Positions 1,731 to 17,701 of a stretch of 64,000 bases of DNA are shown piece after piece. This stretch comes from an uncultured Erythrobacter sp. Its GTDB lineage: Bacteria > Pseudomonadota > Alphaproteobacteria > Sphingomonadales > Sphingomonadaceae. Location: positions 1,240,001-1,304,000 of the forward strand of contig NZ_OY284433.1 of assembly GCF_958304185.1 (NCBI RefSeq). Reading direction: 5' to 3'. Within the stretch, counting starts at the first letter, position 1. Each line of letters opens with the position of its first letter. The notes under the pieces are model-generated. The model searched no databases, had not been told where the DNA came from, and saw nothing but the letters and a program-made list of their open reading frames with translations. Made by a program: the position numbers and the translations under genes.

Positions 1731-2816
1731 TCACATCTCCAATGGCCCGTGCTGGATATGCGGCAGCACGTGGCGCGCGAACAGATCGGCTTCCTGTGCG
1801 TGGGGATAGCCCGACAGGATGAAGGCCTCGATCCCTTCGGCCTGATAGGCGCGCAGCTTGGCGAGCACCTGATCGGGCGTGCCGACAATCGCTGCGCCGC
1901 AGCCTGACCGCGCGCGGCCGATGCCGGTCCAAAGGTTTTCCTCGACAAAGCCGTCGCCGTCCGCCGCGCCGCGCAACTCCTGCTGGCGCTGGACGCCGTA
2001 GTTCTTGGCGTCGAGCGATTTCTCGCGGATCGCGCGGCCCGCCTCGTCATCGAGCTTGGAGAGCAGGCGGTCGGCATAATGGCGCGCCTCGTCCTCGGTC
2101 TCGCGCACGATCACGTGGGCGCGGTAGCCGAACTTGAGCGTGCGGCCGTAATTTGCGGCGCGCGCCTTGAGGTCGGCGATATTCTCGCGGACCTTGTCCA
2201 TCGTGTCGGGCCACATCAGGTAGACATCCGCCGCCTCGGCCGCACACTCGCGCGCCTCATGGCTGAGGCCGCCGAAATAGAACGGCGGGCATTTGCCATT
2301 GAGCGTCGTGATGCGCGGGGGATCGAGTTTGAGCTGGTAGAACTCGCCGTCAAAATCGAGATGCTCGCCGTTCAGCAGCGTCTTCACGATCTTCATGATC
2401 TCGGTGCCGCGACGGTAGCGCGGGCCGCTCTCGATCTTTTCGCCCGGCATATCGGACGAGATGATGTTGACGTTGAGCCGTCCGCCGGTGCCCGCCGCGT
2501 TCGGGCCGAGGATGCGGTCAAGCGTGGCGATCCGGCGCGCCAGCTGCGGCGGCCAGTCCTCGCCCATGCGGGTGGCCCAGAGCAGCTTGATGCGCTTGAC
2601 CTGCGTGGCGACGGCAGCGGCGAAGATCGTGGTGTCGACGCCGAGCTGATAGCCCGAGGGCAGCAGGATATTGTCAAACCCACCTTCTTCGGCGCGCATC
2701 ACGATATTGCGGCAATGCTCCCAGCTTGACGCGAGGTAGGGATCGGGGACGCCGAGGAATTCGTAATCGTCGTCACACAGCGCGGAGAACCACGCGATTT
2801 CGCATTGTTGGGTCAT
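1731..2816 (-). CDS. smoC: SsuD-family FMNH2-dependent monooxygenase, probable sulfoquinovose monooxygenase
   Basis: Predicted to use FMNH2 and O2 to cleave the C-S bond of sulfoquinovose, giving 6-oxo-glucose (6-dehydroglucose) and sulfite. The 361-residue protein is a luciferase-like TIM barrel of the alkanesulfonate monooxygenase group. PFYFGG lies near residue 178, and residues equivalent to the SsuD active site are visible: R232 and H234 in YRAHVIVRE, R303 in the GRARSGCG loop, and Y337 in SGYPH. Its start codon overlaps the aldo/keto reductase stop by one base (TGATG), so the genes are translationally coupled. The flavin reductase that must feed it is encoded at 13241-13813. The SQ assignment rests on its neighbours, above all the sulfoquinovosidase. 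On its own it could be called any SsuD-like alkanesulfonate monooxygenase. Confidence 0.82.
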   Translation of the reverse strand: MTQQCEIAWFSALCDDDYEFLGVPDPYLASSWEHCRNIVMRAEEGGFDNILLPSGYQLGVDTTIFAAAVATQVKRIKLLWATRMGEDWPPQLARRIATLDRILGPNAAGTGGRLNVNIISSDMPGEKIESGPRYRRGTEIMKIVKTLLNGEHLDFDGEFYQLKLDPPRITTLNGKCPPFYFGGLSHEARECAAEAADVYLMWPDTMDKVRENIADLKARAANYGRTLKFGYRAHVIVRETEDEARHYADRLLSKLDDEAGRAIREKSLDAKNYGVQRQQELRGAADGDGFVEENLWTGIGRARSGCGAAIVGTPDQVLAKLRAYQAEGIEAFILSGYPHAQEADLFARHVLPHIQHGPLEM

Positions 2817-3730
2817 CAGGGCAGCCTCTTTCCACGCGCGGCGACGAGCACCGCGTACCAATCCGTCCGCGTCCAGCGCACCTTGAGCGCCTCGGCGCCT
2901 TCGGCAATCCGCTCGGCATTCTGCGAGCCGATGATCGGGATGATTCCCGCCGGATGCGCCATCAGCCAGCTGTAAGCGGCCACCGTGCGCGATACGCCGT
3001 GCGCCTCGGCCACCACATCCAGCGCGGCCGCGACCGCGGTCTCGCGCGCGTTCTCCGGCGCGGTCAGCCTGCCGCCGCCCAAGGGCGACCAGGCCATCGG
3101 GGTCAGGCCCAGCATCATCGCCTGATCGAGTTCGCCATTCTCGAAGCAATCAATCCGAAGCGGGCTGATCTCGGGCTGGGTCGTGACCAGCTTGGTGCCG
3201 AGGAAATGGTTCAGCGCGGCGGTCTGGGCCATCGTGAAATTGGAGATGCCAAGACTGCGGATCTTGCCACTCGCCATCGCATCATCCAGCACCCGCGCCG
3301 TCTCCTGCGGATGGGCGAGAATATCGGGCCGGTGGATCTGCCACAGATCGACGCTGTCCACCTTGAGCCGGCGCAGCGAATCGTCGATCGCGGCGCGCAG
3401 GTAATCGGCGCTCTGGTCATAAGGCAGCGGCGGGAGGATGCCGCCCTTTGTCGCAAGCACCATCCGGTCGCGCAAGGCAGGCTCGGCTGCCAGCACCTCG
3501 CCCAGCAGCGCTTCGGCATCGCCAAAGCCTGCACTGCCATCGAAGCCATAGATGTCGGCGGTGTCGAGGAAGGTGATCCCCGCATCCAGCGCCGCGTGCA
3601 CCAGCTTGGCGGCTTCGGCCACGGTGCGGCCATTTTCGGTCAGCCGCCACATCCCCCAGGCAATGGGAGACACCTCAATGCCGCTCGCACCGAGGGCGCG
3701 TTTGGCAGGCGGAAGGGGCAGGTTACTCAT
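2816..3730 (-). CDS. smoB: Aldo/keto reductase, probable 6-oxo-glucose reductase
   Basis: NAD(P)H-dependent TIM-barrel oxidoreductase of 304 residues. The catalytic tetrad is visible: D56 and Y61 in DTADIYG, K95 in LATKGG, and H133 in QIHRPD. The sequence is close to the YdhF-type aldo/keto reductases. In the sulfo-SMO pathway such an enzyme (SmoB) reduces the aldehyde made by the monooxygenase to glucose, and the position directly upstream of the monooxygenase with a one-base overlap supports that role. Its start abuts the LacI stop with no gap (TAGATG). The assignment of family is strong; the substrate is inferred from context. Confidence 0.8.
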   Translation of the reverse strand: MSNLPLPPAKRALGASGIEVSPIAWGMWRLTENGRTVAEAAKLVHAALDAGITFLDTADIYGFDGSAGFGDAEALLGEVLAAEPALRDRMVLATKGGILPPLPYDQSADYLRAAIDDSLRRLKVDSVDLWQIHRPDILAHPQETARVLDDAMASGKIRSLGISNFTMAQTAALNHFLGTKLVTTQPEISPLRIDCFENGELDQAMMLGLTPMAWSPLGGGRLTAPENARETAVAAALDVVAEAHGVSRTVAAYSWLMAHPAGIIPIIGSQNAERIAEGAEALKVRWTRTDWYAVLVAARGKRLP

Positions 3731-4738
3731 CTAAGGGTTCCTCTTTGGCGGAGCGACCGAAGCGCGCTCGACAAGGTCATGGGGCAGGCGTTTGTGGGTG
3801 ATGTCCCCGCCTGTGATCAGGATTTGGGTGGCGGTGCGCGCCAGATCGGCCATCGGCTGGCGGATCGTGGTGAGCGGCGGCCAGACGGTGCGCGCCAGCG
3901 TGGTGTCATCGAACCCGGCGACCGACAGATCGCCCGGCACATTGATGCCGCGATCATGCGCGACCGCAAGCACACCGGCGGCCATATCGTCGTTCGAAGC
4001 GAAAATTGCGGTGGGCCGTTCGGGCTGATCGAGCAACGCCTTCGCGCCCGCCACACCGGAATCGAAGTCGAACTCGCCATCGACCACCATCTGCGGTTCG
4101 AACGGGATGCCGACCCGGTCGAGCGCGCGGCGGTATCCGAACAGGCGGTCGTCAGACGCCATATGGTTGGTGTGGCCCTTGATGAACCCGATCCGGCGAT
4201 GGCCTGCGTTGATGAGATGCGTGGTCATGTCGTCGGCAGCCTGCGCGTCGTCCATGAACACGCTGGACGTCAGCGCGTGGTTGGTCCCCGGCGAGATGCG
4301 CACGAAGGGCACGTCCATCGTCTCCAGCGCGCGCAGCACCGGGTCGCAATCGGTGACGGGGGAGGAGAGGATGATGCCATCCACATGCGTCTCGCTCACC
4401 AGCCCGCGCACCTGATCGCCGACCCGCGGATCGGCAACGTCGACCGGCTGGGCGAGCAAGCGGATGCCGTTTTCCTGGCACACCTCCCAGCAGCCCTTCT
4501 GGATCTGGAACATGTAATAGGGGCTATGATTGTCGTAGATCAGCGCAACCTGATGGGACTTCGCGCCCGACAGGATGCGCGCAGCCACCGAAGGCCGGTA
4601 GTCGAGATCGGCCATCGCCTGCTCGACCTTCTCGCGCAGCATATCGCTGACATAGGGGTGGCCGTTGAGCACGCGGCTGACGGTCTTGACCGCTACGCCT
4701 GCGCGGGCGGCGACATCCTTGATGTTGGCGCGGCTCAT
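3731..4738 (-). CDS. LacI-family transcriptional repressor of the sulfoquinovose genes
   Basis: A 335-residue regulator with the classical N-terminal LacI helix-turn-helix (residues 4-50, containing NIKDVAARAGVAVKTVSRVL and the hinge-helix AARILSG). A periplasmic-binding-protein-like effector domain follows, with dimer and ligand regions such as IFASNDDMAAG and VAGFDDT. It is embedded in the catabolic operon: its start overlaps the sulfoquinovosidase stop by four bases (ATGA) and its stop abuts the reductase. It most likely represses both divergent arms of the locus and is released by SQ or an SQ-glycoside. The effector is inferred; the family is certain. Confidence 0.88.
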   Translation of the reverse strand: MSRANIKDVAARAGVAVKTVSRVLNGHPYVSDMLREKVEQAMADLDYRPSVAARILSGAKSHQVALIYDNHSPYYMFQIQKGCWEVCQENGIRLLAQPVDVADPRVGDQVRGLVSETHVDGIILSSPVTDCDPVLRALETMDVPFVRISPGTNHALTSSVFMDDAQAADDMTTHLINAGHRRIGFIKGHTNHMASDDRLFGYRRALDRVGIPFEPQMVVDGEFDFDSGVAGAKALLDQPERPTAIFASNDDMAAGVLAVAHDRGINVPGDLSVAGFDDTTLARTVWPPLTTIRQPMADLARTATQILITGGDITHKRLPHDLVERASVAPPKRNP

Positions 4739-6723
4739 CGGGCGAGCTCCGCAAACAGGGGCGCGAAGGCGCTGGTGCGGCGGTAGAAAACCGGCGGCTC
4801 ACCGATGGGTGCCGCGATGTCGTGCCAGCCGGGGGCGAAGTCCGCACCGCTCCAGACATGCCGCCATTCGCCTTCCGGCAGATAGACCTTGCGCATCACC
4901 GCCCCTGCTTCGATCACCGGCGCCACATTCAGATCGGCACCATAAAGATACTGGTCTTGGATCGTGAACGTCTCACGGTCGAGCGGATAGTGGAGGAACA
5001 GCGCGCGCTGGGCCGGAAGGCCGGTGGCCTGCGCTTCGGCGACGAGGTGCGCGGCATATGGGGCGAGGTGCGCGTGGACGCGGCTCCAGCGCACAAAGCC
5101 CTCGATCAATTCACTGGTGGAATCGATCTGGAGATTGTCGTCGGGGCGGTTGCCTTCATGCGTGCGCATCACTGGGCTGAACGCGCCGAGTTCATACCAG
5201 CGCAGCATCAACTCAGGGGTTCGGACATTGCCGAACAGGCTGGTGTAGCCGCCGACGTCCGAATGGCTGAAGGCATTGCCCACCAGCCCCGATGACAGCG
5301 CGGCGGTGATGACCGTGCCGATGCCGTCATGGTGCGAGAAATCAACCGACTGGTCGCCCGCCCACAAGAGCGGGCAATGCGCCTGCACGCCCGTGTGACC
5401 TGCGCGCATGAACCACAAGACGTCACCCGTCCGCCCGCGCGAGGCGACGGCGCGGGCGTTGACTTCCGCCCAGCGCACCGGCCAGCGGTTGTGCTCCTGC
5501 ATCGGGTCGCCATCGTGGAGGCGCAGGTCGGTGGGGAGATATTCGCCAAAGTCCGCCATCCAGCCATCGAGCCCGAAATCGAGCATCCGTTTGCCGATCA
5601 CCTCTTCGGCGAACCATTCGGCAGCGGCGGGATTGGTGAAATCGACCACGCCCGCGTGGAACTCGCCGAAATCGACCGCGTAAGGCTCATCGCTGTCGAG
5701 GCATTTGGCGAAGTAGCCCTTGGCCGCAGCCTCGGGATAGAGCGGACCGTCGACCGCAAGGTAGGGGTTCACATAGCCGAGGAAGCGGATGCCGCGCGCT
5801 TTCAGCGCCGCGATGCGGGCGGGCAGATCGGGGTAGCGTTCCGCGTTCCACTGCCAGTCCCAGAACAACCGGCGTCCAAAGCTGGTTTCGCGGATGCCGA
5901 CCCAGTCTTCGCACCATAGGCCGCTAACCGCCACGCCTGCATCGATCAGGGCTTCGAGCCTGTCGAAACTCGCCTCGCCCTGCTTGAGGCCGACCACGGC
6001 CCCGCCCAGCGCCCATTCGGGCAGCGCCTGACGCGGGCCGAAGCGGGCGGCCAGCTGGCGAGTAAGGTCGGTGGGGGTGCCTTCGTAGAGGTCAATCGTA
6101 ACTTCGCCCGACCACACGTGGACGCGCAGCCGCCCTGCCTCGCTAGCGTCGAGTTCGACATACTCAGCATTGGCAAGGCTCAGCGCCCAGCCGCCGGAGC
6201 ATAACACCGTCGGTTCGGGATAATTGGTCGTCCAGTAGTCCCCGCCCGCGAACGAACCATCGCCGCTCGCCTGATCGGTGAGCGGCGTGCCGGGTTCGCG
6301 GCCGACCCCGGGCTCGCTGGTCCAGATCGGAAATGTGCGGCCATTCAGGGCGAGATAGCTCATCTGCTCACCCCCGCCCCACAGCACATCATCGGGGGTC
6401 AGCGCGAAGTCCAGCGTGATGCGATCATGCCCGCTAAGCGAGATCACAGTCAGCCGCGGTGCGTGGGGCGCAAGACTCAGCGACACTTTCGCGGCTCCAT
6501 CGGCACTGGAGAGCACCACCGCGCCCTCTCCCACCACTTCGCAAACGGACAGTGGCCTTGCTGCCACAGGGGTATCCGACAGGCGGAAATTGCCGCGCAC
6601 CATCGTCACCAGAGGATTGCCTGAAGCCACCGAAATTACAGAACTATGTGGCCTGTGGCGCAGGATCGGGCACCCCGCCAATCGCAGGTCAAATCCCCCA
6701 TCGCATGGCGTCATTGCCACCAT
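4735..6723 (-). CDS. GH31 sulfoquinovosidase
   Basis: Hydrolyses alpha-sulfoquinovosides such as sulfoquinovosyl-glycerol, the deacylated head of the plant and cyanobacterial sulfolipid, giving SQ and glycerol. From the ATG at 6721-6723 the product has 662 residues; a second ATG nine bases later is possible and neither has a strong ribosome site. The nucleophile is D391 in WMADFGEYLPTDL and the acid/base is D457 in LWAGDQSVDFS. The residues that bind the sulfonate in E. coli YihQ (R301, W304, Y508) are matched by R285 and W288 in SFGRRLFWDW and by Y493 in HSDVGGYTS. The spacing between acid/base and the last tyrosine is 36 residues in both. Ordinary GH31 alpha-glucosidases lack this set. No signal peptide is evident, so it should act in the cytoplasm. 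It heads the minus-strand operon. Confidence 0.9.
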   Translation of the reverse strand: MVAMTPCDGGFDLRLAGCPILRHRPHSSVISVASGNPLVTMVRGNFRLSDTPVAARPLSVCEVVGEGAVVLSSADGAAKVSLSLAPHAPRLTVISLSGHDRITLDFALTPDDVLWGGGEQMSYLALNGRTFPIWTSEPGVGREPGTPLTDQASGDGSFAGGDYWTTNYPEPTVLCSGGWALSLANAEYVELDASEAGRLRVHVWSGEVTIDLYEGTPTDLTRQLAARFGPRQALPEWALGGAVVGLKQGEASFDRLEALIDAGVAVSGLWCEDWVGIRETSFGRRLFWDWQWNAERYPDLPARIAALKARGIRFLGYVNPYLAVDGPLYPEAAAKGYFAKCLDSDEPYAVDFGEFHAGVVDFTNPAAAEWFAEEVIGKRMLDFGLDGWMADFGEYLPTDLRLHDGDPMQEHNRWPVRWAEVNARAVASRGRTGDVLWFMRAGHTGVQAHCPLLWAGDQSVDFSHHDGIGTVITAALSSGLVGNAFSHSDVGGYTSLFGNVRTPELMLRWYELGAFSPVMRTHEGNRPDDNLQIDSTSELIEGFVRWSRVHAHLAPYAAHLVAEAQATGLPAQRALFLHYPLDRETFTIQDQYLYGADLNVAPVIEAGAVMRKVYLPEGEWRHVWSGADFAPGWHDIAAPIGEPPVFYRRTSAFAPLFAELAR

Positions 6724-6826
6724 TTTTGTCCCAGGTTTCCTCACCGGGCTATCCCTTGGCCCGTTGTGACACCGCTTGACAGATCGCGGCGGAAAGCGCA
6801 ACCCGAGCACCGAAAGATCGACCGCA

Positions 6827-6852
6827 CGGGCGATGGTCTTTGCTATCGCCCG
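6827..6852. promoter_or_regulatory. Inverted repeat in the leader of the TonB receptor gene
   Basis: CGGGCGAT and ATCGCCCG form a perfect 8-bp stem around a ten-base loop, ending 35 bp before the receptor start codon in the divergent intergenic region. No T run follows, so it is not a standard terminator. It could be an RNA hairpin or a repressor site. A TTGACA sequence at 6776-6781 is a possible -35 box, but no good -10 was seen at the usual distance. Confidence 0.3.
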
Positions 6853-6887
6853 AAAGACCCGATCACGATGCAGGGGAGAGAAATACG

Positions 6888-9203
6888 ATGTCCGCCACCA
6901 CCCGAATTGCGCTCAAAACGCTCGCCATCTCCGCCAGTTCGCTGGCCCTGATGCACACCGCGCCGGCCATGGCGCAGGTTGAAGAAATCATCGTAACCGC
7001 CCAGAAGGTCGAGGAAAACGTCCAGGACGTGCCGATCGCGATCACTGCGGTTTCGGGCGACCGCCTGATCCAGGCGGGGGTCATCAGCCTCGAGAACATC
7101 TCGACCGTGGTGCCGTCGGTAACGTTCCGCAAGGGCACCACCAGCGCCAACAGCGCGATCGTGATGCGCGGCGTCGGCACGATCAGTTTCTCGGTCGCGG
7201 CTGAACCGTCTGTGTCCACCGTTGTCGATGGCGTGGTGCTGTCGCGTTCGGGCCAGGCATTCATGGATCTGGTTGATCTCCAACGGCTTGAAGTTCTGCG
7301 CGGGCCGCAGGGCACGCTGTTTGGCCGCAATGCTTCGGCCGGTTTGGTCAACATCGTCTCCAAGGGCGGCACCGACACGTTTGAAGCCGAAGCCAGCGCC
7401 GATTGGTTCGAAGGCGAGGAATACCGCCTGCGCGCCGCGATCTCCGGCCCGCTGGGTGAAAACCTCAGCGCTCGCCTAACCGGCTTCTACGGCAGCTATG
7501 ATGGCAACATCACCAACATCAACGGCGGCCGTAACGACAAGGTCAATGGTTACGAGCGTTACGGCGTGCGCGGGATCATGGATTATGACGATGGCGGCAA
7601 CACCGTCCGCCTGATCGCGGATTACTACAAGGCAGATGATGATTGCTGCGTCGATGTGACCGGCGCCAGTCGCGGCGCGGTGCAGGATGCACTGCTCGGC
7701 CTGCCGAACGGCGTGGCGATTGGCGAGGACCAGCGCTTCATCAACAATGACCTCGTTACCAGCACACAGGATCAGCAATGGAGCCTGACGGGCACCGGCG
7801 ATTTCGAGATCACCGACACCCATACGCTCAGCGTCGTGCTCGGCTACCGCAACTGGGAAAACACCGAGAACCGCGACGGTGACTTCCTTCCGCGCGCCAT
7901 CACCACTGCGGGGCAGCTGCACGATGTCGGCATAGTGAAGACCGAACAAGTCTCAGCCGAAATCCGCCTCGCCTCGGACCAGTCGAAGCCGTTCTTCTAT
8001 CAGGTCGGCGCCTTCGCTTGGCAATCGGACAACACCCAGGACTTCACCCGCCAGGGCGTGACTTGCGCAACCTCGACCCTAGCGGCGCTGCCGGGTGGGG
8101 CGATCCCGTGCAATGTTTCCGATACGGTCAACACGCTGTTCCCCTTCGCCACCTCGCGCAGCGACGTGCGTTCGAAGAACTACGCGCTGTTCGGTCAGGC
8201 AACCTACCAGATTACCGAGCAGCTCTCACTGACCGGCGGCCTGCGCTACACCTGGGATGATCTTGAATTCACCCACACCCGCGCACCGGCGGTCAACCGC
8301 ACCACCGGTCTCCCTGCAACCGGCCCGGGCACCAACGGCAACCCGGCAGGCGGCACCATCGCGAGCGGCGGCAACGGCACCAACACCAGCCGCGGCGAGA
8401 CCACCAACGGCAACCTTTCGGGCCGTGCGGCGATCCAGTTCAAGCCGTCGGAAGACATCATGCTCTACGGCTCGTACACCCGCGGCTACAAGGGTCCGGC
8501 CTTCAACGTGTTCTTCAACCACACCGCGCCAAACAACGCGGTGCCGATTTCCGAAGAACTGTCGGACAGCTTTGAAATCGGGGCGAAGACGCAGTTCCTC
8601 GACAACCGCGTGCAGCTCAACGTCGCGGCCTTCATGGTCGAGTATGACGGGTTCCAGGCGAACAACTTTATCGTCGTCAACACTGCGACGATTTCGAACC
8701 TGACCAACGCGGGCACGGTGAAGAGCGAAGGCTTCGAAGCCGATCTGATCGTCAACCCGATCGATGGGCTGAACCTGCGCGCCAGCGCGGCCTATGCGGA
8801 CGCACGGGTCAAGCAGTTCAACCCGAACCCGACCACCAACGCGCCCGACGCTCGCAACGGCACCGTGCTGCCGCTGGCGCCGAAGTTCGTCTACACCATC
8901 GGCGGGGACTACACCAAGGAACTGGGCGGGGTGACGCTGTACCTCAACACGGATTACCGCCACACCAGCACGCAGTTCTCGGACCTTGGCCAGTCGCCGA
9001 CCACCCAGATCGATCCCTATGGCATCTGGAACGCCTCGGTCGGCTTCTCCGATCCGGACGACAAGTACCGCGTGACCTTCCACGCCCGCAACATCACCGA
9101 TGACAGCTACGTGCTGCTCAACATCGAGAACGGGCGCCGCTTGCAGATCCCGCGCGATGCCGACCGTTACTTCGGCGTCAGCCTGCGTGTGCGGACGTTC
9201 TGA
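6888..9203 (+). CDS. TonB-dependent receptor, probable outer-membrane importer for sulfoquinovosides
   Basis: A 771-residue outer-membrane transporter. A signal peptide of about 30 residues ends APAMA-Q, followed directly by the TonB-box-like EEIIVTAQ, a plug domain (about residues 35-160, with LEVLRGPQGTLFGRNAS) and a 22-strand barrel finishing in a terminal phenylalanine (RVRTF). The start is the ATG at 6888, preceded by GGGGAG at a good distance. It is divergent from the sulfoquinovosidase operon across 164 bp and is followed by a terminator and then the MFS gene. Sphingomonads often use such receptors for carbohydrates. SQ-glyceride import is inferred purely from context; the family is certain. 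Confidence 0.88.
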   Translation: MSATTRIALKTLAISASSLALMHTAPAMAQVEEIIVTAQKVEENVQDVPIAITAVSGDRLIQAGVISLENISTVVPSVTFRKGTTSANSAIVMRGVGTISFSVAAEPSVSTVVDGVVLSRSGQAFMDLVDLQRLEVLRGPQGTLFGRNASAGLVNIVSKGGTDTFEAEASADWFEGEEYRLRAAISGPLGENLSARLTGFYGSYDGNITNINGGRNDKVNGYERYGVRGIMDYDDGGNTVRLIADYYKADDDCCVDVTGASRGAVQDALLGLPNGVAIGEDQRFINNDLVTSTQDQQWSLTGTGDFEITDTHTLSVVLGYRNWENTENRDGDFLPRAITTAGQLHDVGIVKTEQVSAEIRLASDQSKPFFYQVGAFAWQSDNTQDFTRQGVTCATSTLAALPGGAIPCNVSDTVNTLFPFATSRSDVRSKNYALFGQATYQITEQLSLTGGLRYTWDDLEFTHTRAPAVNRTTGLPATGPGTNGNPAGGTIASGGNGTNTSRGETTNGNLSGRAAIQFKPSEDIMLYGSYTRGYKGPAFNVFFNHTAPNNAVPISEELSDSFEIGAKTQFLDNRVQLNVAAFMVEYDGFQANNFIVVNTATISNLTNAGTVKSEGFEADLIVNPIDGLNLRASAAYADARVKQFNPNPTTNAPDARNGTVLPLAPKFVYTIGGDYTKELGGVTLYLNTDYRHTSTQFSDLGQSPTTQIDPYGIWNASVGFSDPDDKYRVTFHARNITDDSYVLLNIENGRRLQIPRDADRYFGVSLRVRTF

Positions 9204-9227
9204 CCCGCGTGGCAACTTGAACTCAAC

Positions 9228-9260
9228 AAGGGCCGTCGGAGCGATCCGGCGGCCCTTTTT
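9228..9260 (+). terminator. Rho-independent terminator after the TonB receptor gene
   Basis: AAGGGCCGTCGGA pairs with TCCGGCGGCCCTT around a GCGA loop, followed by TTTTT. It lies 24 bp after the receptor stop codon. It would separate, or attenuate, transcription between the receptor and the transporter/flavin genes downstream. Confidence 0.85.
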
Positions 9261-9308
9261 GTCTGGCCTTGCTTGCCCTGCTGTGTGCTTGAACTCTAGG
9301 AACCCGTG

Positions 9309-10574
9309 ATGGCCCAACCTTCCTCGCCCATATCTGCGCGGCTGCGCTGGTCGCTGTTCACGGTGCTGTGCATCGCGGGGGTGTTCAACGCGATGGACCG
9401 CCCGATCATCGCGATCCTGAAGCCCGACATGATGGCCGATTTCGGCTGGAGCGACAGTGACTTTGGTGATCTCGCCGCAGTCACGCAGTTCTCGGCCGCC
9501 TTCGCTTTCCTGTTCACCGGCTGGCTGGTCGACCGGCTCGGCGTGAACCGATCAATGCAGGTGGGCGCGACCGCATGGAGCCTTGCAGCGGTCGCGCATG
9601 GCTGGGCGCTGAGCACTGCGCAAGTGGTCGCCGCTCGCGTCGGGCTTGGCGTGACCGAGGCGGTGCAGACGCCGCTGACGATCAAGACCGTCGCGAGCCT
9701 GTTCCCGCCGGACAAGCGCAGCTTCGCCTTCGGCTTTGCGACCATGCTCGCAGGCGCAGGCACTATCGCGATGCCGTTCGTCATCCCGGCACTTGCGCTG
9801 GCGGTGGGCTGGCGCGGCGCACTGGTGGCGGGCGGGATCGGCGGATTTCTGTCGCTGCTCGCATGGATGTGGCTGGCGCGCGGGGTGGCGCAATTGCGCG
9901 AGCGCACGCTGGCGGACAGCCCCGACCCCGGCGGCGAGAGCGCGCGTTACGGCGCAATCCTCGCCAACCGCGCGACCTGGGCAATCGTCGGGGCCAAAGC
10001 GCTATCGGATATGACCTGGTGGTTCATCAACTTCTGGCTGGCGGATTATTACCGCAAGGAATTCGGCCTCACCACGCTGGAACTGGCCGTGCCGCTGGCA
10101 ATTGCCTTTGCCGGATCAGGCCTTGGCGCGCTGCTGGCGGGGTGGGTGTCGACCCGGCTGCTGGAGCGCGGGCATAGCCCGAACCGGGTGCGCAAGGGCG
10201 TGATGCTGGCCTCGGCCCTGCTGGTCGCGCCCCTGCCGCTGGTGCTGGAGCTTAACGCCTTCTGGCCGGTCGCTTGCATGATCGGGGTGGTGATGGCCGG
10301 GCATCAGGGCTTCTCGCTCTCGCTGTTCTCGACCATCACCGATGTCGTCCCGAACGCCAAGGTCGGGCGGGTGACCGCGTTCGGCGCGTTCATGGGCAAT
10401 ATGGGCGGGGTGGCGATTTCGCTGATTACTGGCCGCGTGCTCGATGCAGGCTTCGGCTTCGTGCCGCTGTTCATCTTTGCCGCCTCGTCCTATCTGGTTG
10501 CGCTGGCGTGGTTCCAGTGGCTGCTGCCGGTGATCCGACGGCCGGAGGAAGAGGCGACGGATCTGCTCGCATAG
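9309..10574 (+). CDS. MFS transporter, candidate inner-membrane sulfoquinovose(-glycerol) importer
   Basis: A 421-residue major facilitator with about 12 membrane segments in two halves. The first half carries NAMDRPIIAILKPDMMADFGWSDSDFG, a pattern typical of the anion:cation symporter group that imports hexuronates and other acidic sugars. GWLVDRLGVNRS marks the loop between segments 2 and 3. A GTG three bases upstream of the ATG is an alternative start. An importer for anionic sugars fits SQ, which carries a sulfonate. The known Agrobacterium sulfo-SMO locus uses an ABC importer instead, and none is seen here. Substrate is inferred from context. Confidence 0.8.
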   Translation: MAQPSSPISARLRWSLFTVLCIAGVFNAMDRPIIAILKPDMMADFGWSDSDFGDLAAVTQFSAAFAFLFTGWLVDRLGVNRSMQVGATAWSLAAVAHGWALSTAQVVAARVGLGVTEAVQTPLTIKTVASLFPPDKRSFAFGFATMLAGAGTIAMPFVIPALALAVGWRGALVAGGIGGFLSLLAWMWLARGVAQLRERTLADSPDPGGESARYGAILANRATWAIVGAKALSDMTWWFINFWLADYYRKEFGLTTLELAVPLAIAFAGSGLGALLAGWVSTRLLERGHSPNRVRKGVMLASALLVAPLPLVLELNAFWPVACMIGVVMAGHQGFSLSLFSTITDVVPNAKVGRVTAFGAFMGNMGGVAISLITGRVLDAGFGFVPLFIFAASSYLVALAWFQWLLPVIRRPEEEATDLLA

Positions 10575-10659
10575 CCGTCCAAGGCGCCGGTGCGGTTGCA
10601 TTCAACAGGCTTGCGGAGTAGGACTATGACACCGTGAGACATAAGGCAGGCTGGACGGC

Positions 10660-11754
10660 ATGAAGCGCGATGCGCGCCCCGATTTCGAGGCTTTTGCCGG
10701 CGACCTGTTCGGCGAGATCATGCTCGCCGATACGGCTACTGCTGCCGCCGCCAAAGCCGAGAAGAAGCCGCTGTCGCGCTTCGTCCCCGGCTTGGCGATC
10801 TGCGCCATTGCCGGAGCGGCGGCGGCTTGGCTCAGCCAGAATTACGGGGTGCCGATCATTCTGGCGGGACTGCTGCTCGGCCTCGCGCTGAACTTTGCGG
10901 CCACTGACCCGCGCACCCATGACGGCTTGGACTGGGTCTCGCGCCACGGCCTGCGCGGCGGGATCGTGCTGCTCGGCTTTCAGGTCACGGTGATGCAGGT
11001 GCTGGCGATGGGCGTTGTGCCGTTTCTCGGCCTCGCGCTGGTGATGGGCGCCGCGCTCCTCGCCGCGCTCGCAGCCGCCCGCATGACGGGGCAGAGCGCT
11101 TCGGTCGGCCTGCTCGGCGGCGGGGCAACCGCGATCTGCGGGGCTTCGGCGGCGCTGGCGCTTTATGGCGTCATCGGGCGCGAGCGGATCGATCAGGCGC
11201 TCTTCACGCTGACGCTGGTGATCCTTGCCGCCGCTAGCGCGATTGCGCTCGTTACCTATCCGCCGCTGACCCGGATGCTCGGCTTTAGCGATGCGCAGGC
11301 CGGGTTCCTGGTCGGCGCATCGATCCACGATGTCGCGCAGGCGATTGGCGCGGGGTTCGCGGTGTCGGACGCAGCCGGTGCGCAGGCGACCGTGGTGAAG
11401 CTCACCCGCGTGGCGCTGCTCGCCCCGCTGGTGACGCTCGCCGCGCTGTGGATCGCCCGCGCCGAGCCGCTGCCCGAAGGCGTGGGCCGGACGCGGGTGC
11501 CGATCCTGCCGGGCTTCATTCTGGCCTTCCTAGCGCTGGTAGGGGTGAACTCGTTCGTCACCCTGCCCGCTGACCTTGCGGGCCATGCGCTGACCCTGTC
11601 AAAGACCTTGCTGCTGCTCGCCGTCACCGCCACAGCCATGCGGACGCGGACCGACCTGCTGCTTGGATTGGGTTGGCGGTCGGTGATGCCGGTGCTTGCG
11701 GCGACCATTGCCTCGCTCGCAGCGGCGCTGGGCTTTGCGTGGTGGATGATCTGA
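10660..11754 (+). CDS. YeiH/UPF0324-family putative sulfate/sulfite exporter
   Basis: A 364-residue membrane protein with about ten hydrophobic segments and the family signature GGGATAICGASAALAL near residues 148-163. The family is annotated as putative sulfate exporters and often sits beside enzymes that release sulfite or sulfate. The first 40 residues are a hydrophilic cytoplasmic extension. It lies 85 bp after the MFS gene and its stop overlaps the glpD start by one base (TGATG). In this locus the natural cargo would be the sulfite released by the monooxygenase, so the protein would act as detoxification. Family is clear; transport of sulfite is inference. Confidence 0.85.
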   Translation: MKRDARPDFEAFAGDLFGEIMLADTATAAAAKAEKKPLSRFVPGLAICAIAGAAAAWLSQNYGVPIILAGLLLGLALNFAATDPRTHDGLDWVSRHGLRGGIVLLGFQVTVMQVLAMGVVPFLGLALVMGAALLAALAAARMTGQSASVGLLGGGATAICGASAALALYGVIGRERIDQALFTLTLVILAAASAIALVTYPPLTRMLGFSDAQAGFLVGASIHDVAQAIGAGFAVSDAAGAQATVVKLTRVALLAPLVTLAALWIARAEPLPEGVGRTRVPILPGFILAFLALVGVNSFVTLPADLAGHALTLSKTLLLLAVTATAMRTRTDLLLGLGWRSVMPVLAATIASLAAALGFAWWMI

Positions 11755-13244
11755 TGCCCGATGTGTTCGACCTTGCAGTGATCGGCGGCGGCGTGAACGG
11801 CGCCGGGATCGCGCGCGACGCAGCCGGGCGCGGGGCCAAGGTGCTGCTGCTGGAACGCGGCGATCTGGCGGAAGGCACCTCGTCCAACTCCACCAAGCTG
11901 ATCCACGGCGGCTTGCGCTATCTGGAGCATTACGAATTTGCGTTGGTGCGCGAGGCGCTGACCGAGCGGGAGGTGCTGTGGGGCATCGCGCCGCACATCA
12001 TCTGGCCGCTGCGCTTCATCCTGCCCCACCGCCCCGGCCTGCGCCCGCGCTGGCTGCTGCGGCTGGGGCTGTTCCTCTACGACCATATCGGCGGTCGCAA
12101 ATATCTGCCCTCGGCCGAGGGGATCGACCTGACCCGGCACCCCGCCGGCGCGCCGCTCAAGCCAGCATATACCCGCGCCTTTGCCTATTCCGATGGCTGG
12201 GTGGATGATGCGCGGCTGGTGGTGCTCAACGCCCGCGACGCGGCGGATCGCGGAGCCGAAGTGCGCACCCGCTGCGAGGTGGCAGCGCTCACCCGCGAAG
12301 GCGAACTTTGGCGGATCGACGCGGGGGGCGAAACCTTCCGCGCCCGCGCAGTCGTCAACGCCGCCGGGCCGCGCGTGCTCGACCTGCTGGGCCGCGCGGG
12401 CGAGCCGTCTGCGCAAAAGATGCGGCTAGTGCGCGGCTCGCACATCGTTGTCCGCAAGCTGTTCGACCACGACTACGCCTATTTCTTCCAGCTGCCCGAC
12501 GGGCGGATCTTCTTCGCGATCCCCTACGAACAGGACTTCACCCTGATCGGCACCACCGATGTCGATCACGACGGCAGCCTCGACGAAGTGCGCGCCAGTG
12601 CGGAGGAAATCGCTTACCTGTGCGCGGGCGCCTCGGAGTATTTCCGTAAGCCCGTAACGCCTGCTGATGTGGTCTGGACCTATTCCGGAGTGCGCCCGCT
12701 GATCGACGATGGTTCGGGCAAGCCGGAGGCAGCGACCCGCGGTTACAGCTTCGAACTCGACGGCGGAGCGGAGGGCGCGGCGCCCTTGCTCTCGGTGTTC
12801 GGCGGCAAGATCACCACCTACCGCGAACTCGCCGCCGAGGCGATCCGCCAGCTTGAACCCTTCCTGCCGGTGCTGGAAGGCGAGGATTGGACCGGCAAGG
12901 CGTTCTTGCCCGGCGGCGATTTCGGGCGGTTCGATGCGCCCGCCCTCGCCGCTGATCTGGCCGCGCGTCATCCGTTTCTGGGCGAGGTCGAGGCTCACCG
13001 CCTGATCCGCCTTTACGGTACTTCGGCCGCCACATTCCTCGGCGATGCTGCCAGCGCAGCGGATTCGGGTGAAGGATTCGGCCACGGGCTGACGGCGGCT
13101 GAAGTCGACTACCTCATCACCCGCGAATGGGCCCGCACTGCCGCCGACGTGCTGTGGCGGCGCACCAAGCTCGGCCTGCATTTCACGGACGCGCAAACCG
13201 CGCGGCTCGCTGCCTACATCACCGAAAGGATTACCCCCGCATGA
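11754..13244 (+). CDS. glpD: Aerobic glycerol-3-phosphate dehydrogenase
   Basis: FAD enzyme of 496 residues that oxidises sn-glycerol-3-phosphate to dihydroxyacetone phosphate and passes electrons to quinone at the inner membrane. The N-terminal dinucleotide fold has VIGGGVNGAGIARDAAGRG. The family blocks TSSNSTKLIHGGLRYLEHYE, YSDGWVDDARLV and FGGKITTYRELAE are all present, and the C-terminal extension typical of GlpD covers about the last 120 residues. Start ATG at 11754 overlaps the preceding stop, and its own stop overlaps the next start (ATGA), so it is part of a tight operon. Within an SQ locus it would dispose of the glycerol half of SQ-glycerol once phosphorylated. No glycerol kinase is in the window. 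Confidence 0.93.
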   Translation: MPDVFDLAVIGGGVNGAGIARDAAGRGAKVLLLERGDLAEGTSSNSTKLIHGGLRYLEHYEFALVREALTEREVLWGIAPHIIWPLRFILPHRPGLRPRWLLRLGLFLYDHIGGRKYLPSAEGIDLTRHPAGAPLKPAYTRAFAYSDGWVDDARLVVLNARDAADRGAEVRTRCEVAALTREGELWRIDAGGETFRARAVVNAAGPRVLDLLGRAGEPSAQKMRLVRGSHIVVRKLFDHDYAYFFQLPDGRIFFAIPYEQDFTLIGTTDVDHDGSLDEVRASAEEIAYLCAGASEYFRKPVTPADVVWTYSGVRPLIDDGSGKPEAATRGYSFELDGGAEGAAPLLSVFGGKITTYRELAAEAIRQLEPFLPVLEGEDWTGKAFLPGGDFGRFDAPALAADLAARHPFLGEVEAHRLIRLYGTSAATFLGDAASAADSGEGFGHGLTAAEVDYLITREWARTAADVLWRRTKLGLHFTDAQTARLAAYITERITPA

Positions 13245-13813
13245 CCCGAATCGTAGCCCTTGGCGGCACGGTCAATCCCGGCTCATCCACCGAGCAGGCG
13301 CTGCGCCTTGCCGCTGGAATCGCGGCGAGCGAAGGGGCAGAAGTGACGGTGTTCGGCGGCGAATATCTGACTGCGCTGCCCCACTACCTCGGCCCGCTGC
13401 ATGATCCCTCGCAAGGGGCCGAGATGGTCGCAGCCGTGCGCGCAGCGGATGGTTTGCTGATTGCCGCGCCGGGGTATCACGGCACGATTTCGGGCGTGGT
13501 CAAGAACGCGCTCGATTACCTCGAAGACCTTTCGCGGGACGAGCGCCCTTACCTTGATGGCCGCGCGGTCGGGCTGATTGCCACTGCGTTCGGCGATCAG
13601 GCGTCGATGTCGACCCTGCTCACCATGCGCGCGATCACCCATGCCTTACGCGGCTGGCCCACCCCAATGGGCGCGACGATCCGCACCTATCGCGGGCTGT
13701 TCTCGCCCGATGGCGAATGCCTGGATGAACGGGCGCGGGGGCAGCTGGAGCTGGTCGGCAAGCAGGTGGTGCTCGGCGCCAAGAGCTTTGCGGCCGGGAG
13801 GGATCTGGCGTGA
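13241..13813 (+). CDS. SsuE-type NAD(P)H-dependent FMN reductase (functional SmoA)
   Basis: A 190-residue flavodoxin-like reductase that would make the free FMNH2 used by the sulfoquinovose monooxygenase. The phosphate-binding loop is VNPGSSTEQAL at residues 11-21. The flavin-ring segment APGYHGTISGVVKNALDYLED corresponds to the conserved YHGSYSGALKNALDWL region of SsuE/MsuE. It overlaps glpD at its start and the RibB-like gene at its stop by four bases each. The flavin reductase described in Agrobacterium (SmoA) belongs to a different flavin-reductase fold as far as I recall, so this would be a non-orthologous replacement. Family is confident; partnership is inferred. Confidence 0.85.
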   Translation: MTRIVALGGTVNPGSSTEQALRLAAGIAASEGAEVTVFGGEYLTALPHYLGPLHDPSQGAEMVAAVRAADGLLIAAPGYHGTISGVVKNALDYLEDLSRDERPYLDGRAVGLIATAFGDQASMSTLLTMRAITHALRGWPTPMGATIRTYRGLFSPDGECLDERARGQLELVGKQVVLGAKSFAAGRDLA

Positions 13814-14424
13814 CCAGCGCGGATTTCGACGCGGCGCTCACCGCTGTTGCCGCGGGGCGGATCGTGGTGATTTCGGGCGACCGGCTGCGCGGCGGGGACA
13901 TCGATCTGATGTGTGCTGCGAAGCACGTCACGCCCGAAGCGATCAATTTCATGGCTACCCACGGGCGCGGGCTGATCTGTCTGGCGGTGACGCCGGAGCG
14001 TGCCGACCAGCTGGGCCTCACCCTGGTGAACCCGGGCACCGCACGCCAGACCGGGCGGCCCTTCGCCCGCTCGATTGAAGCGGCCGAGGGCGTCTCCACC
14101 GGCATATCCGCGGCTGACCGGGCGCATACCGTCACAGTTGCGATGGCTGACGGGGCGAGTTCGTCGGACATCCACTCCCCCGGCCATGTCTTTCCGCTGA
14201 TCGGCCAGAGCGGCGGCGTGCTGGCCCGTCCGGCGGCGTGCGAGGCGGCAATCGACCTCGCCCGGATGGCAGGCGCAGGGGACGCGGCGGTAATCTGTTC
14301 GATCATGCGCGATGATGGTGAGATGGCGCGGATCGACGATATCGGCGAGCTTATCGCGACCCATGATCTGGCCGTCGCAGAAATCGGCGCATTGATCGCC
14401 CGGCTGGAATCAGCGCGGGTCTAA
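13810..14424 (+). CDS. RibB-like 3,4-dihydroxy-2-butanone 4-phosphate synthase, altered active-site loop
   Basis: A 204-residue single-domain relative of RibB, which converts ribulose 5-phosphate to the four-carbon riboflavin precursor. The later half is well conserved (IEAAEGVSTGISAADR, SPGHVFPL with H126, CEAAIDLARMAG with E145). The acidic loop that in E. coli RibB reads DRENEGD (R37, E38, E40, D42) reads DRLRGGD here at residues 24-30. The magnesium-binding glutamate and its neighbour are therefore replaced by L26 and G28. It may be catalytically weak or have another role. It closes the operon after the FMN reductase, suggesting flavin supply or flavin binding for the monooxygenase. A normal RibB is expected elsewhere in the genome. 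Confidence 0.78.
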   Translation: MTSADFDAALTAVAAGRIVVISGDRLRGGDIDLMCAAKHVTPEAINFMATHGRGLICLAVTPERADQLGLTLVNPGTARQTGRPFARSIEAAEGVSTGISAADRAHTVTVAMADGASSSDIHSPGHVFPLIGQSGGVLARPAACEAAIDLARMAGAGDAAVICSIMRDDGEMARIDDIGELIATHDLAVAEIGALIARLESARV

Positions 14425-14485: not shown

Positions 14486-17400
14486 TCACCAGCCGAAGCG
14501 GATCGACGCACGCAAACTGTAGCCGATATTGCCGAACTGGTTTTCCAGCCCGACTTCACCGGCGATCTTGTAACTGCCGTCCCCGCCCAGCGCGCGGGCG
14601 CGAGCGTACCAGCCGCTGTCGCGCCCTTCGGGGGTCAGCGTGAACTGCGCTCCATCGCCAAACTGCGCGCTCGTTGCGCCCAAATCACTCGTCAGCAATT
14701 CGCGCCAGCCACCTTCGGCCTCGATCCGGAACCAGCCATTGTCGCGCGCCTGCATACCCCACATATCGACGCCGACGGTGACGCCGCCATTGATGCCGAC
14801 TTCCTTGCTCGACCGGCCCTGAACCGTCAGGTCCAGCGCATCGCCGCCGCCAGTTTCCTCGTAGCCATCTTCCTTGAGGCGCAGGTAATCGACCACCAGC
14901 GAGGGGCGGAAGAAAAAGAACTGGCCGCCGCCTTCAATCGACACGCCGCCGCTGGCCGAGACGAAATCGCCGCTCCAGTCGCGGTTGATGGTGAGGTTTA
15001 CCGCGTCCTCCCCGGTTCCGCCCGCAAACACACGGCTGCCCGAATAGTCCGACTTACCCGCGCCGACGCGCGCAAAGCCGATCACCGGGCCAAACTTGCC
15101 GCGCCAGTGGACGCCGCCTTCGTAGCTGTCACCCATCACAGAATTGTCGAACGGGCCGGACGTGTGCTTGCTCCACAACCAGCTGCCCGTCACCCCGACC
15201 GCGCCGAACTTGCTGAGGTATTCCACCCCGCCGCGGAAACCGAGGCCGCTCAGGTCGAACGCCGCCGATTGGCCGCGGTCTTTTTCCGAATTCCAGTTGG
15301 CGAAATCGGCGATGATCCGGAACTTGCCTTCTTCATCGAACGGCGAGTTGGGGTCGAGGAAGTGCCGATCAAAGGCGCGCAGGCCTTGGCTCAACCCCTG
15401 AAAGGTGCCGCCCGCATAATCGGGCAGGGTCTGGGCGACATAGGCCTGGAACACTTCCGCCGTGCCGATCGACAAGAACAGGTCGGCGACCTTGTCATCC
15501 TCGGCTAGAGCGATGAACAGCTTGTCGAAAGCCGCGCTTTCGGCGGTGTTGAGGCCAAGCTCGCCGGTTGCCTTGCGGTTGATCGCGACGTTGATGGTGT
15601 TGCCATTCACCGCCAGCGCCGCCTTGTAGAGGAACGGCACCAGCGCAGAATCAGCGGTCAGGTTGCTCGCGCCAGTCAGGCTGCCGGCGGAGATCACCGC
15701 ATAGGTGCCCCCGGCAGTATTGAGGTCGGAAAGGCGGATGCGAATCTTGGAGCCGCTCGCAAAAGTGGCATTACCGGTGACGGTGATCGCGGTGTCGCTG
15801 CCCGCTGCCCCGCCCAGCGTCGCGCCGATCACGCCGGTCGCGCCGACATCGAGGCTGGCGATGGTGGTCGGGCCGTTCAGCGCGAGCGTCCCGCCGCTGA
15901 GGCCGACTGCGACATTTTGCGCATTCACCAGCCGCCCGCCGAACCCGGCGGTGTTGGCGATGGACAGCGTGCCAGCCCCGCCGCCGAAATCGACCGTGCC
16001 GCTGAAGGCTGCATCACCGCTCATCAGGAAGCGGTTGGTGCCGCCACCGAAGCTGATCGTGCCGCTCGCCACGCCGTCGGCCAGATCGAGCAAGTCGGAA
16101 CCGCTGCCGAAGCGGATATCGCCGATGATCGAGGGCGCGGCATTGCCGGCGGCAACCACAGTCTGGCGGACGATGCTGTCACCGGTGCGTGCCGAGAGGT
16201 CGATTGCGACATTGCGGTTCGAGGTCGCCAGCGCGCCGCTCGCGCTGATCGCGCCGCTGTTCTCGATCAGGCCGAGCGTGCCGGACCGGTCAACGATGGC
16301 AAAGGCCCCGCCACCGGACACCGTTGTCGCCGTGATCGACTTGGAGTTGCGCAGCACTGGGAGCGACGCGCCCGCCCCGATCAGCACCCCGGTTGCATCG
16401 CCCGTGGTGGTGCCGGAGACCGTCGCGGCGATGGTGCCGCCGTTGCTCAGGATCGGCACGGTCGTGCCTGCCGCAAGCTCAAGAGCGGTGGCATTGGCCC
16501 CGCGCGCGGCGGCACCGATCTGACCGTTGATCTGCATCCCGTTGGCGATGGTAACGTTCCCGCTGCGCCCGCCGATCCGCATCCCGGTGCCGTTCACGCC
16601 GGTATAGACCCCGTCGCCCAAAATCGTGCCGGCCATGACGATACCGAAATTGTTGGCTGTGCCTTCGGTCGCGCCGATGGCGATATTGCTCGTCCCGCCG
16701 ATCTGCACCGCGGGCGCCGCGCCGTAGGCAATGATCCGGGTGTTGCCTTCCTTGGCATCCTCGATCCCGTCCTTGTCCTCGTCATTGTCAGTTGTGACGA
16801 GATCGGCCGGGGCGATTTCAAAGATGATGCCCTTGGCGACATTGCCTTCGATCACCAAAGCGCTGCCGCCTTGCAGCAGATCGTCCGCATCGAGCCGCGA
16901 GGCGTCAGCCGGGGCAGGGACCGAGCGATAGCCGCTCACCGTGATAGCGCTCTGCACCCGCAGCGCGCCGCCAAGATTGCCGCCCAGCACCGCGCCCTGC
17001 GCATTGGCTCCGCGCGCGGTGATCTCACCCGCCAGCCGGACATTGCCGGAAACATTGCCAACCGCAACGCCGACCGAATTGTTGCCAGTCACGGTGGTCT
17101 TGCCGTCATGAGTGAAGGTGCCGGTGATCGGGCCACTGGCGCGGATGCCAGCGGAGTTGTTGCCCTCGACCACAATCGTGCCGGAGTGGACGAGATTGCC
17201 GGTCAGCGCACCATCGATGCGGATCGCGGTGCGGCCGCTGCCGATGGCGAATGGCCCGTCGATGTCGCCATCATTGTCGCTGTCAGTGGGAGTATAGGTC
17301 TCGTCGATCGTGATCGTGCCGGTATTGGTGATGTTGGCCGTGCGCGGGCCGGTCACCAGGATGCCGGTCGCATCATTGGCATTGCTGATCGTGATATTGC

Positions 17401-17626
17401 CCGCGTTGGTGACCGCGTTGTTGCTGTCGACCGTCACCGCCGTGCCGCTGGTCACGGTGACCGAGCCTGCGGTCTCGATCCGCACGTCATTGGGCTGGCC
17501 GCCGTTCACGGTCGAGGTCACGACCGGCGTGGTGCGCGCGGTGCTGATGACGGTCTGAGCGGCGAGGGGCTGCGCAAGGGCGACAAGCGCCGTCCCGGCA
17601 AGAAGCGTGCGGTGCAGGGCAGTCAT
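14486..17626 (-). CDS. Autotransporter with repetitive passenger and C-terminal barrel
   Basis: A 1046-residue surface protein. The ATG at 17624-17626 follows AGGAGA and gives a clean signal peptide ending PLAAQ-T. Earlier in-frame codons are unlikely. Residues about 25-650 are glycine/alanine/threonine-rich short repeats of the NTGTITI / NAGNITISN kind, expected to form a beta-helix. Residues about 780-1046 form the autotransporter barrel, ending in an aromatic residue (SIRFGW). Two acidic aspartate motifs resemble calcium-binding loops: DSDNDGDIDG near residue 115 and DNDEDKDGIEDAKEG near residue 280. It lies 75 bp downstream of the STN-type TonB receptor on the same strand and may be controlled by the FecI/FecR pair. 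Passenger function unknown. Confidence 0.85.
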   Translation of the reverse strand: MTALHRTLLAGTALVALAQPLAAQTVISTARTTPVVTSTVNGGQPNDVRIETAGSVTVTSGTAVTVDSNNAVTNAGNITISNANDATGILVTGPRTANITNTGTITIDETYTPTDSDNDGDIDGPFAIGSGRTAIRIDGALTGNLVHSGTIVVEGNNSAGIRASGPITGTFTHDGKTTVTGNNSVGVAVGNVSGNVRLAGEITARGANAQGAVLGGNLGGALRVQSAITVSGYRSVPAPADASRLDADDLLQGGSALVIEGNVAKGIIFEIAPADLVTTDNDEDKDGIEDAKEGNTRIIAYGAAPAVQIGGTSNIAIGATEGTANNFGIVMAGTILGDGVYTGVNGTGMRIGGRSGNVTIANGMQINGQIGAAARGANATALELAAGTTVPILSNGGTIAATVSGTTTGDATGVLIGAGASLPVLRNSKSITATTVSGGGAFAIVDRSGTLGLIENSGAISASGALATSNRNVAIDLSARTGDSIVRQTVVAAGNAAPSIIGDIRFGSGSDLLDLADGVASGTISFGGGTNRFLMSGDAAFSGTVDFGGGAGTLSIANTAGFGGRLVNAQNVAVGLSGGTLALNGPTTIASLDVGATGVIGATLGGAAGSDTAITVTGNATFASGSKIRIRLSDLNTAGGTYAVISAGSLTGASNLTADSALVPFLYKAALAVNGNTINVAINRKATGELGLNTAESAAFDKLFIALAEDDKVADLFLSIGTAEVFQAYVAQTLPDYAGGTFQGLSQGLRAFDRHFLDPNSPFDEEGKFRIIADFANWNSEKDRGQSAAFDLSGLGFRGGVEYLSKFGAVGVTGSWLWSKHTSGPFDNSVMGDSYEGGVHWRGKFGPVIGFARVGAGKSDYSGSRVFAGGTGEDAVNLTINRDWSGDFVSASGGVSIEGGGQFFFFRPSLVVDYLRLKEDGYEETGGGDALDLTVQGRSSKEVGINGGVTVGVDMWGMQARDNGWFRIEAEGGWRELLTSDLGATSAQFGDGAQFTLTPEGRDSGWYARARALGGDGSYKIAGEVGLENQFGNIGYSLRASIRFGW

Positions 17627-17701
17627 CGGGGTATTCTCCTGGTGCTTTTCACCAAGAGACGGAGGCACGGCTGCGCAGCCTTGGCTGCGGCGCGAAAAAA
17701 A

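Follow-up and report, generated by a model that had tools for sequence, protein, structure and literature searches.

The DNA analyzed here is a window of 64,000 nucleotides from the genome of an uncultured Erythrobacter sp. (contig NZ_OY284433.1), and the subject of this report is a locus of ten genes at 1731-14424, four on the minus strand and six divergent from them on the plus strand, as recovered by a Pfam/NCBIfam profile search of the window's proteins (Table 1). An original prediction, made from the sequence alone, described this as a locus for degradation of sulfoquinovose (SQ) of the oxygenolytic type (sulfo-SMO and sulfo-ASMO being two names for the same pathway type). All ten genes lie where it placed them, as do the overlaps of the minus-strand operon, in which the genes for the glycoside hydrolase (GH31) and LacI regulator overlap by 4 bases, those for LacI and the aldo/keto reductase (AKR) abut, and those for AKR and the SQ monooxygenase (SMO) overlap by 1 base. 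In the plus-strand arm the overlaps are 1 base for YeiH/GlpD, 4 for GlpD and the flavin mononucleotide (FMN) reductase, and 4 for the FMN reductase and RibB*, the name used here for the RibB-like protein of SQ loci.

Table 1. Features of the putative sulfoquinovose locus, with coordinates in the window.
Feature	Position	Strand	Basis
SQ monooxygenase (SMO), SmoC/SquD type, luciferase-like PF00296	1731..2816	-	profiles and PDB matches
Aldo/keto reductase (AKR), SmoB/SquF type, likely 6-dehydroglucose reductase	2816..3730	-	PF00248 and PDB matches
LacI-family regulator, likely SQ-responsive repressor	3731..4738	-	PF00356 and PF13377
GH31 sulfoquinovosidase (SQase), predicted	4735..6723	-	NF007746, PDB match, residues
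Conserved 15-bp element TGACACCGCTTGACA, predicted LacI-family operator/promoter	6767..6781	+	conservation in GH31-TonB gaps
TonB-dependent receptor, likely SQ-glycoside uptake across the outer membrane	6888..9203	+	PF00593 and PF07715
MFS transporter, likely inner-membrane import	9306..10574	+	PF07690
YeiH-type transporter, likely sulfite/sulfate export	10660..11754	+	PF03601
GlpD, aerobic glycerol-3-phosphate dehydrogenase	11754..13244	+	NF009906
FMN reductase, likely source of reduced FMN (FMNH2) for SMO	13241..13813	+	PF03358
RibB*, conserved paralogue with the fold of 3,4-dihydroxy-2-butanone 4-phosphate (DHBP) synthase but lacking its metal ligands	13810..14424	+	PF00926, residues, clade, model

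The GH31 protein scores 808.2 bits (cut-off 553) on NF007746, a model named alpha-glucosidase that we take to be the YihQ-type model, and 752.9 bits against 5ohy in the PDB, where 5ohy and 5ohs, presumably the Agrobacterium SQase, are listed as alpha-glucosidase yihQ. The original prediction had proposed an alignment with SQase structures, and in the alignment to 5ohy/5ohs residues R285, W288, Y493, D391 and D457 are matched at exactly the positions it had claimed; K247 and E272 are present as well, completing the "KERWY" set of SQases, in which R, W and Y bind the sulfonate and K and E act as a pair, with D391/D457 as nucleophile and acid/base. Residue set and model score agree with a sulfoquinovosidase, and hydrolysis of SQ-glycosides is predicted. 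Inspection of its N terminus by eye revealed no signal peptide, and its location would be cytosolic. Two further GH31-type matches lie elsewhere in the genome (G000:C1:1963791-1964816 and 1530184-1530567), one strong and one barely above the cut-off. SMO, present in a single copy in the genome, has its best PDB matches in 7olf (366.8 bits) and 7oh2 (359.2 bits), followed by 7jv3 (200.8) and 1m41 (187.4); the entries of the first two read methanesulfonate sulfonatase and alkanesulfonate monooxygenase, and we take both to be SmoC enzymes. As SMO reaches 245.1 bits on the alkanesulfonate monooxygenase model TIGR03565, under its cut-off of 518.2, it appears nearer to SmoC-type than to SsuD-type enzymes. 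AKR is matched best by 7bbz (195.9 bits), presumably SmoB under a generic PDB name, and 7bby (194.6 bits). The SmoB- and SmoC-type genes are adjacent (1731-3730), inside the distance of at most 10 open reading frames by which PMC13372026 recognizes a sulfo-SMO cluster, and the flavin reductase expected of such a cluster is found in the PF03358 protein at 13241-13813.

Relatives of SMO occur in 240 stretches of a species-genome collection, the best 80 of which were analyzed as loci; 74 bear a sphingomonad name and 6 are given only as Alphaproteobacteria, Proteobacteria or Pseudomonadota. Matches were found to AKR in 80 of these loci, to LacI in 77, to GH31 in 76 and to the TonB receptor in 70 (in part at only ∼40% identity), with some of the misses due to contig ends. 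All four core genes are matched in 74/80 loci, the six exceptions being cut by a contig end (L061, L065, L079, L082) or rearranged (L050, L056), and because the set is kept so regularly, chance association can be excluded. In the two rearranged loci, both from Novosphingobium with SMO at 89% identity, there is no LacI match nearby and GH31 is inverted and farther away. The original prediction had also suggested searching relatives for the gene set, and the locus was indeed found across the order, SMO being present at E 1e-120 or better in 86 of 396 genomes; it is a variant of a known pathway. The record titles of the relatives name several kinds of sample, leaving the marine habitat that had been supposed unsettled.

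The element TGACACCGCTTGACA was found in 85/85 GH31-TonB gaps (exactly in 77, at 14/15 positions in 8), these being the gap of the window and those of 84 of 100 examined loci with the divergent arrangement, among which L071 and L106 are one sequence; in mononucleotide shuffles at most 12/15 positions were matched. The pattern is the window's own 15 bases, first spotted by eye in a palindrome scan, and same-genus relatives add little to the count; loci at only 68-77% SMO identity also keep it, differing at no more than one base. A search of the window's genome that left one position free and tolerated one mismatch gave two sites, one of them exact; a near-copy with a changed base lies at G000:C1:902252-902266 (L111). 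Since up to three mismatches yield three sites in the window where 1.28 are expected, only close matches are meaningful. The 3′ end of the element carries TTGACA, which resembles a -35 box that would serve the TonB arm, and by eye the whole is an imperfect palindrome overlapping it; a perfect palindrome was considered as operator, and none common to the loci emerged from the scan. We regard the element as a candidate LacI-family operator/promoter; the Agrobacterium sulfo-SMO cluster has a LacI-type regulator as well.

The divergent arm sets the locus apart in its transport genes, as had been predicted: an SQ-glycerol ABC transporter of the Agrobacterium kind is absent from the ten locus genes, to which this search was confined, and sequence and synteny point to a TonB receptor and MFS transporter instead. 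In many Novosphingobium and Blastomonas loci (L032-L057 and others, left flank) the MFS match near TonB is ∼39% identical and oppositely oriented, perhaps because another inner-membrane carrier has taken its place there. The YeiH-type protein (PF03601, 161.6 bits) is, from its family name, likely a sulfite/sulfate exporter. GlpD (NF009906, 736.2 bits, cut-off 352) is the only full-length match in a search of the window's own genome, which encodes a glycerol kinase, GlpK, above cut-off elsewhere, on C4; a GlpD in the locus would make sense if SQ-glycerol is cleaved in the cytosol, since glycerol would then be set free.

The FMN reductase had been labeled "SsuE-type", a label it does not bear out, since it scores 30.9 bits on TIGR03567 (SsuE; cut-off 164.05). 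The locus resembles SsuDE in combining a luciferase-like monooxygenase with a flavin reductase, but both proteins here fall well below the SsuD- and SsuE-type cut-offs; the broader expectation that the flavin reductase would differ from that of Agrobacterium agrees with sequence and synteny. The locus likely supplies a candidate reductase for SMO. A reductase of the PF01613 family is encoded somewhere in 22/23 SMO genomes whose stretch lacks the PF03358 reductase, and was considered as a stand-in near SMO; in the eight of these genomes for which the distance was compared, leaving aside the other 15, one has none, and in seven every match lies on a different contig from SMO or 90 kb or more away.

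RibB* lies directly downstream of the reductase on the same strand in 32/32 loci that have both (31 distinct), with -7 to +29 bases between them and usually a 4-base overlap, and the pair accompanies SMO in several gene orders. It stands in the divergent arm in the window, L090-L095, L108 and L109 (L030 shows only the reductase, the stretch ending there), behind SMO-GlpD in 16 loci plus L105 and L107, and ∼15-50 bases behind SMO in L071 (= L106), L074, L077, L081 and L083. In L126 and L127 the reductase is found between SMO and GH31, and in G229 and G386, where the order is AKR-SMO-reductase-GH31, it has no RibB* beside it. In the search of the order the reductase threshold was E 1e-50, and the RibB* counts hold among the matches listed, so that low-scoring RibB* in SMO-less genomes are possible. 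On that basis, all of the 28/28 genomes with a RibB* match of at least 61% identity carry SMO on that contig, no more than 12.3 kb away. The reductase adjoins RibB* in all 34 RibB* genomes compared, in 12 of which the residues were read directly and the others typed by identity; six of the 34 (46-55% identity) had been chosen for lying on SMO contigs and stand outside the 28/28 count. A hypergeometric value computed over the 34 includes these six and takes no account of kinship, and no weight is placed on it here. In the window's genus, 13/13 SMO-bearing genomes have a RibB* match of at least 79%, that of G130 (C22:76707-77183) being partial and spanning residues 44-202 only. Beyond the order, a search of 385 genomes of the class, the window's included, gave three matches at E 1e-54, a threshold at which weaker relatives could be missed: the window itself and two at 51-52% in long open frames. 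In some SMO-less genomes the reductase adjoins a 75% SmoB-like match (L114) or a 67-68% GlpD match (L115, L117), possibly as remnants of lost SQ loci; a 49% RibB match in L117, of unassigned type, lies 6.7 kb from the reductase.

The original prediction was right that a RibB-like gene is present and made no mention that its product lacks the metal ligands of DHBP synthase. Residues, numbered as in E. coli RibB, were read in 33 RibB* sequences, namely the window's and those of 21 + 11 loci (32 distinct, L106 repeating L071), with 21 RibBA proteins including that of the window's genome as control. E38 is replaced in 32/33 RibB* (G22, R6, D3, H1, with E retained in 1), H153 in 33/33 (A26, T7) and E174, which we take to be the catalytic acid/base of DHBP synthase, in 33/33 (S22, A11), whereas all three are kept in 21/21 RibBA. 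D33, N39 and E40 have become G, G and D in 33/33 RibB* against D, N and E in 21/21 RibBA, and T154 is kept in 2/33 versus 21/21; R37, D42, T107, D113, H136, R150 and E155 are retained in 33/33. The window's RibB*, with G at 38 and A at 153, has neither of the two metal ligands, and the changes H153→A, E38→G and E174→S are found in 120/120 of its best database matches, which are its nearest relatives among 7,048 matches that include ordinary RibB. In a crystal complex of DHBP synthase (PMC12268802), the phosphono group is assigned to R34 and R147, the metals to E35 and H150, and ligand oxygens to H133 and D39, with T151 also contacting the phosphono group. Shifted by a constant 3 rather than aligned, these correspond to R37, R150, E38, H153, H136 and D42, and T151 to the mostly lost T154, from which it follows that RibB* has kept the ligand-binding side chains and lost the metal ligands.

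In a FastTree phylogeny rooted on E. coli RibB the 33 RibB* group together in one clade (support 0.90) to the exclusion of every ordinary RibBA. Across 12 pairs pN/pS is 0.11-0.36 for RibB*, 0.02-0.26 for the reductase and 0.03-0.12 for SMO; RibB* is under purifying selection, less constrained than its neighbors. Open frames run to 184-206 amino acids in the 33 sequences, and 51 columns are invariant across 37 aligned sequences. An AlphaFold2 model (pLDDT 93, pTM 0.90) searched with Foldseek returned DHBP synthase for the 46 best PDB chains (TMq 0.79-0.91), substrate complexes among them, with 0.90-0.91 for 1g57_A and 3lqu. The profile scores are 204.9 bits on PF00926 and 176.3 on TIGR00506, just under its cut-off of 177.45, and an intact RibBA is encoded in the same genome at C1:382974. 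Judged by its residues, RibB* differs from an ordinary DHBP synthase. Its persistence across dozens of relatives despite the loss of the metal ligands suggests that it is probably a repurposed one with a new job.

Taken together, we read the locus as a route of the sulfo-SMO type, with predicted uptake of SQ-glycerol, cleavage by SQase, sulfite release by an FMNH2-dependent SMO, and a RibB* likely serving SMO rather than riboflavin synthesis (probability about 0.82); the oxygenolytic chemistry that had been predicted is in keeping with both sequence and synteny. Under this proposal, the TonB receptor and MFS transporter would import the glycoside, from which GH31, its residues in place, would free SQ and glycerol in the cytosol; the PF03358 reductase would make FMNH2, SMO would convert SQ to 6-dehydroglucose and sulfite as its closest relatives suggest, and the SmoB-like reductase would complete the path to glucose. 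YeiH would export the sulfur anion, GlpK and the locus GlpD would burn the glycerol, LacI would repress from the 15-bp element until SQ or its glycoside binds, and RibB* would hold a ligand with a ribityl-phosphate or sulfonate group and leave it unchanged. It is very unlikely that the locus acts on some other sulfonate or glycoside and only resembles an SQ locus: TonB and MFS specificity is not readable from sequence, and the MFS matched differs among lineages, but the operon that encodes the SmoC- and SmoB-type enzymes also encodes a protein with the equivalog score and the residues of an SQase, and 13C-SQ was taken up by Novosphingobium, sulfo-SMO being predicted in genomes related to it (PMC13372026).

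Several observations weigh against this interpretation, or parts of it. At the thresholds used, 52/86 SMO genomes lack the reductase-RibB* pair and 50/86 lack the reductase in the locus, so the chemistry itself can do without the pair. A relative of the reductase (E ≤ 1e-50) also occurs in 20 SMO-less genomes, and no RibB* stood beside it in the 14 of these that were opened. The YeiH-type protein scores 87.1 bits on TIGR00698, below the cut-off of 232.6, and GlpD, as the cell's only copy, may serve general glycerol use. One RibB*, that of L092, carries an E at position 38; RibB* changes more quickly than SMO does, and in 11/12 pairs more quickly than the reductase; and any ligand named for it is a guess.

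For RibB* itself we propose, from its residues and setting, that it serves the SQ monooxygenase as a third component without catalytic activity. Tentatively, and by analogy, it might hold the ribityl-phosphate tail of FMNH2 through its two kept arginines, shuttling it from reductase to SMO and shielding it from oxygen, in which case it would be a counterpart of lumazine protein derived from DHBP synthase, and such two-component flavin monooxygenases would really be three-component systems. Both arginines, phosphate-binding in PMC12268802, could instead be put to work on the sugar side, the old phosphate pocket taking the sulfonate of SQ in a sulfonate binder or in a mutarotase or scavenger of SQ/6-dehydroglucose; sulfate is bound in DHBP synthase crystals, going by the titles of 3lrj and 3ls6, and no mutarotase is found among the ten locus genes. 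We nevertheless regard such a role as somewhat unlikely, as the invariable placement of RibB* next to the reductase points to the flavin side and SMO loci without RibB* are common. That RibB* in a sulfo-SMO locus is still an active DHBP synthase raising the riboflavin/FMN supply for SMO is unlikely. Its fold, its PF00926 score and its near miss on TIGR00506 would be compatible with activity, and ribB is carried in Photobacterium lux regions (PMC8272222); with the metal ligands gone, both retained throughout the RibBA control, and an intact RibBA elsewhere, ordinary flavin supply becomes doubtful, and none of the ten locus genes is another riboflavin gene. The faster evolution of RibB* and the partial match in G130 could also be taken as signs of a decaying passenger, a very unlikely explanation given its pN/pS values, open frames and invariant columns.

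The core pathway is already known, Novosphingobium included, and RibB* is the most interesting part of the locus. SQ ranks among the most abundant organosulfur compounds according to PMC12890257, and sulfo-ASMO has been published for a sphingomonad, Novosphingobium aromaticivorans (PMC9594981, PMC12890257); Novosphingobium was also labeled by 13C-SQ in mangrove and estuary incubations, with sulfo-SMO predicted (PMC13372026). The "novel gene complement" of the original prediction therefore stands as a variant with added genes but not as a first in sphingomonads, and SsuE homologues in such clusters have been mentioned (PMC9594981). Shared with the sulfo-SMO of Agrobacterium and N. aromaticivorans are the SQase, the FMNH2-dependent SQ monooxygenase and the aldo/keto reductase; different here are TonB and MFS in place of the ABC transporter, the PF03358 reductase, and the additional YeiH, GlpD and RibB*. 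In the N. aromaticivorans cluster an SsuE homologue is reported to be missing, and FMNH2 supply in clusters without one is attributed to presumed other reductases (PMC9594981); the present locus offers a candidate reductase, a candidate regulator site and an unexpected partner protein.

RibB* shares with RibB/RibBA the fold and R37, D42, H136 and R150, but differs in the lost E38, H153 and E174, in being single-domain and in being tied to SQ loci. Photobacterium lumazine protein, described as an enzymatically inactive paralogue of riboflavin synthase, would be a close functional parallel, an inactive riboflavin-pathway relative in a luciferase system; unlike RibB* it stems from riboflavin synthase, binds a lumazine and acts in light emission (PMC8272222). 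Plant RIBA3 has lost DHBP synthase activity by exchange of essential residues, but belongs to a plastid protein with two domains in which GTP cyclohydrolase activity is retained, and has no monooxygenase link (PMC3509567). If a riboflavin enzyme has turned oxygenase accessory, it would stand beside lumazine protein and affect automatic annotation, which by the names of the database matches calls RibB* proteins DHBP synthases. Among the papers listed in our literature search none was seen to join a RibB-like protein with SQ, two papers on the pathway (Liu et al. 2021, Sharma et al. 2022) lying outside its scope and an earlier figure with these genes being possible; sulfoquinovose combined with Erythrobacter matched a phage paper alone.

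Downstream of the locus the window encodes a 1060-amino-acid protein (14486-17668), autotransporter-like by eye and with zero Pfam matches, and behind it another TonB receptor, extended at its N terminus (17702-20071). Farther along are a multi-PAS HWE histidine kinase (23906-26098), a GT20 enzyme (29956-31482), an OEP and AcrB-type efflux pair (37329-42004), a PD40-amidohydrolase protein (47208-50528) and a DUF4953/DUF5117 metzincin (50731-53205).

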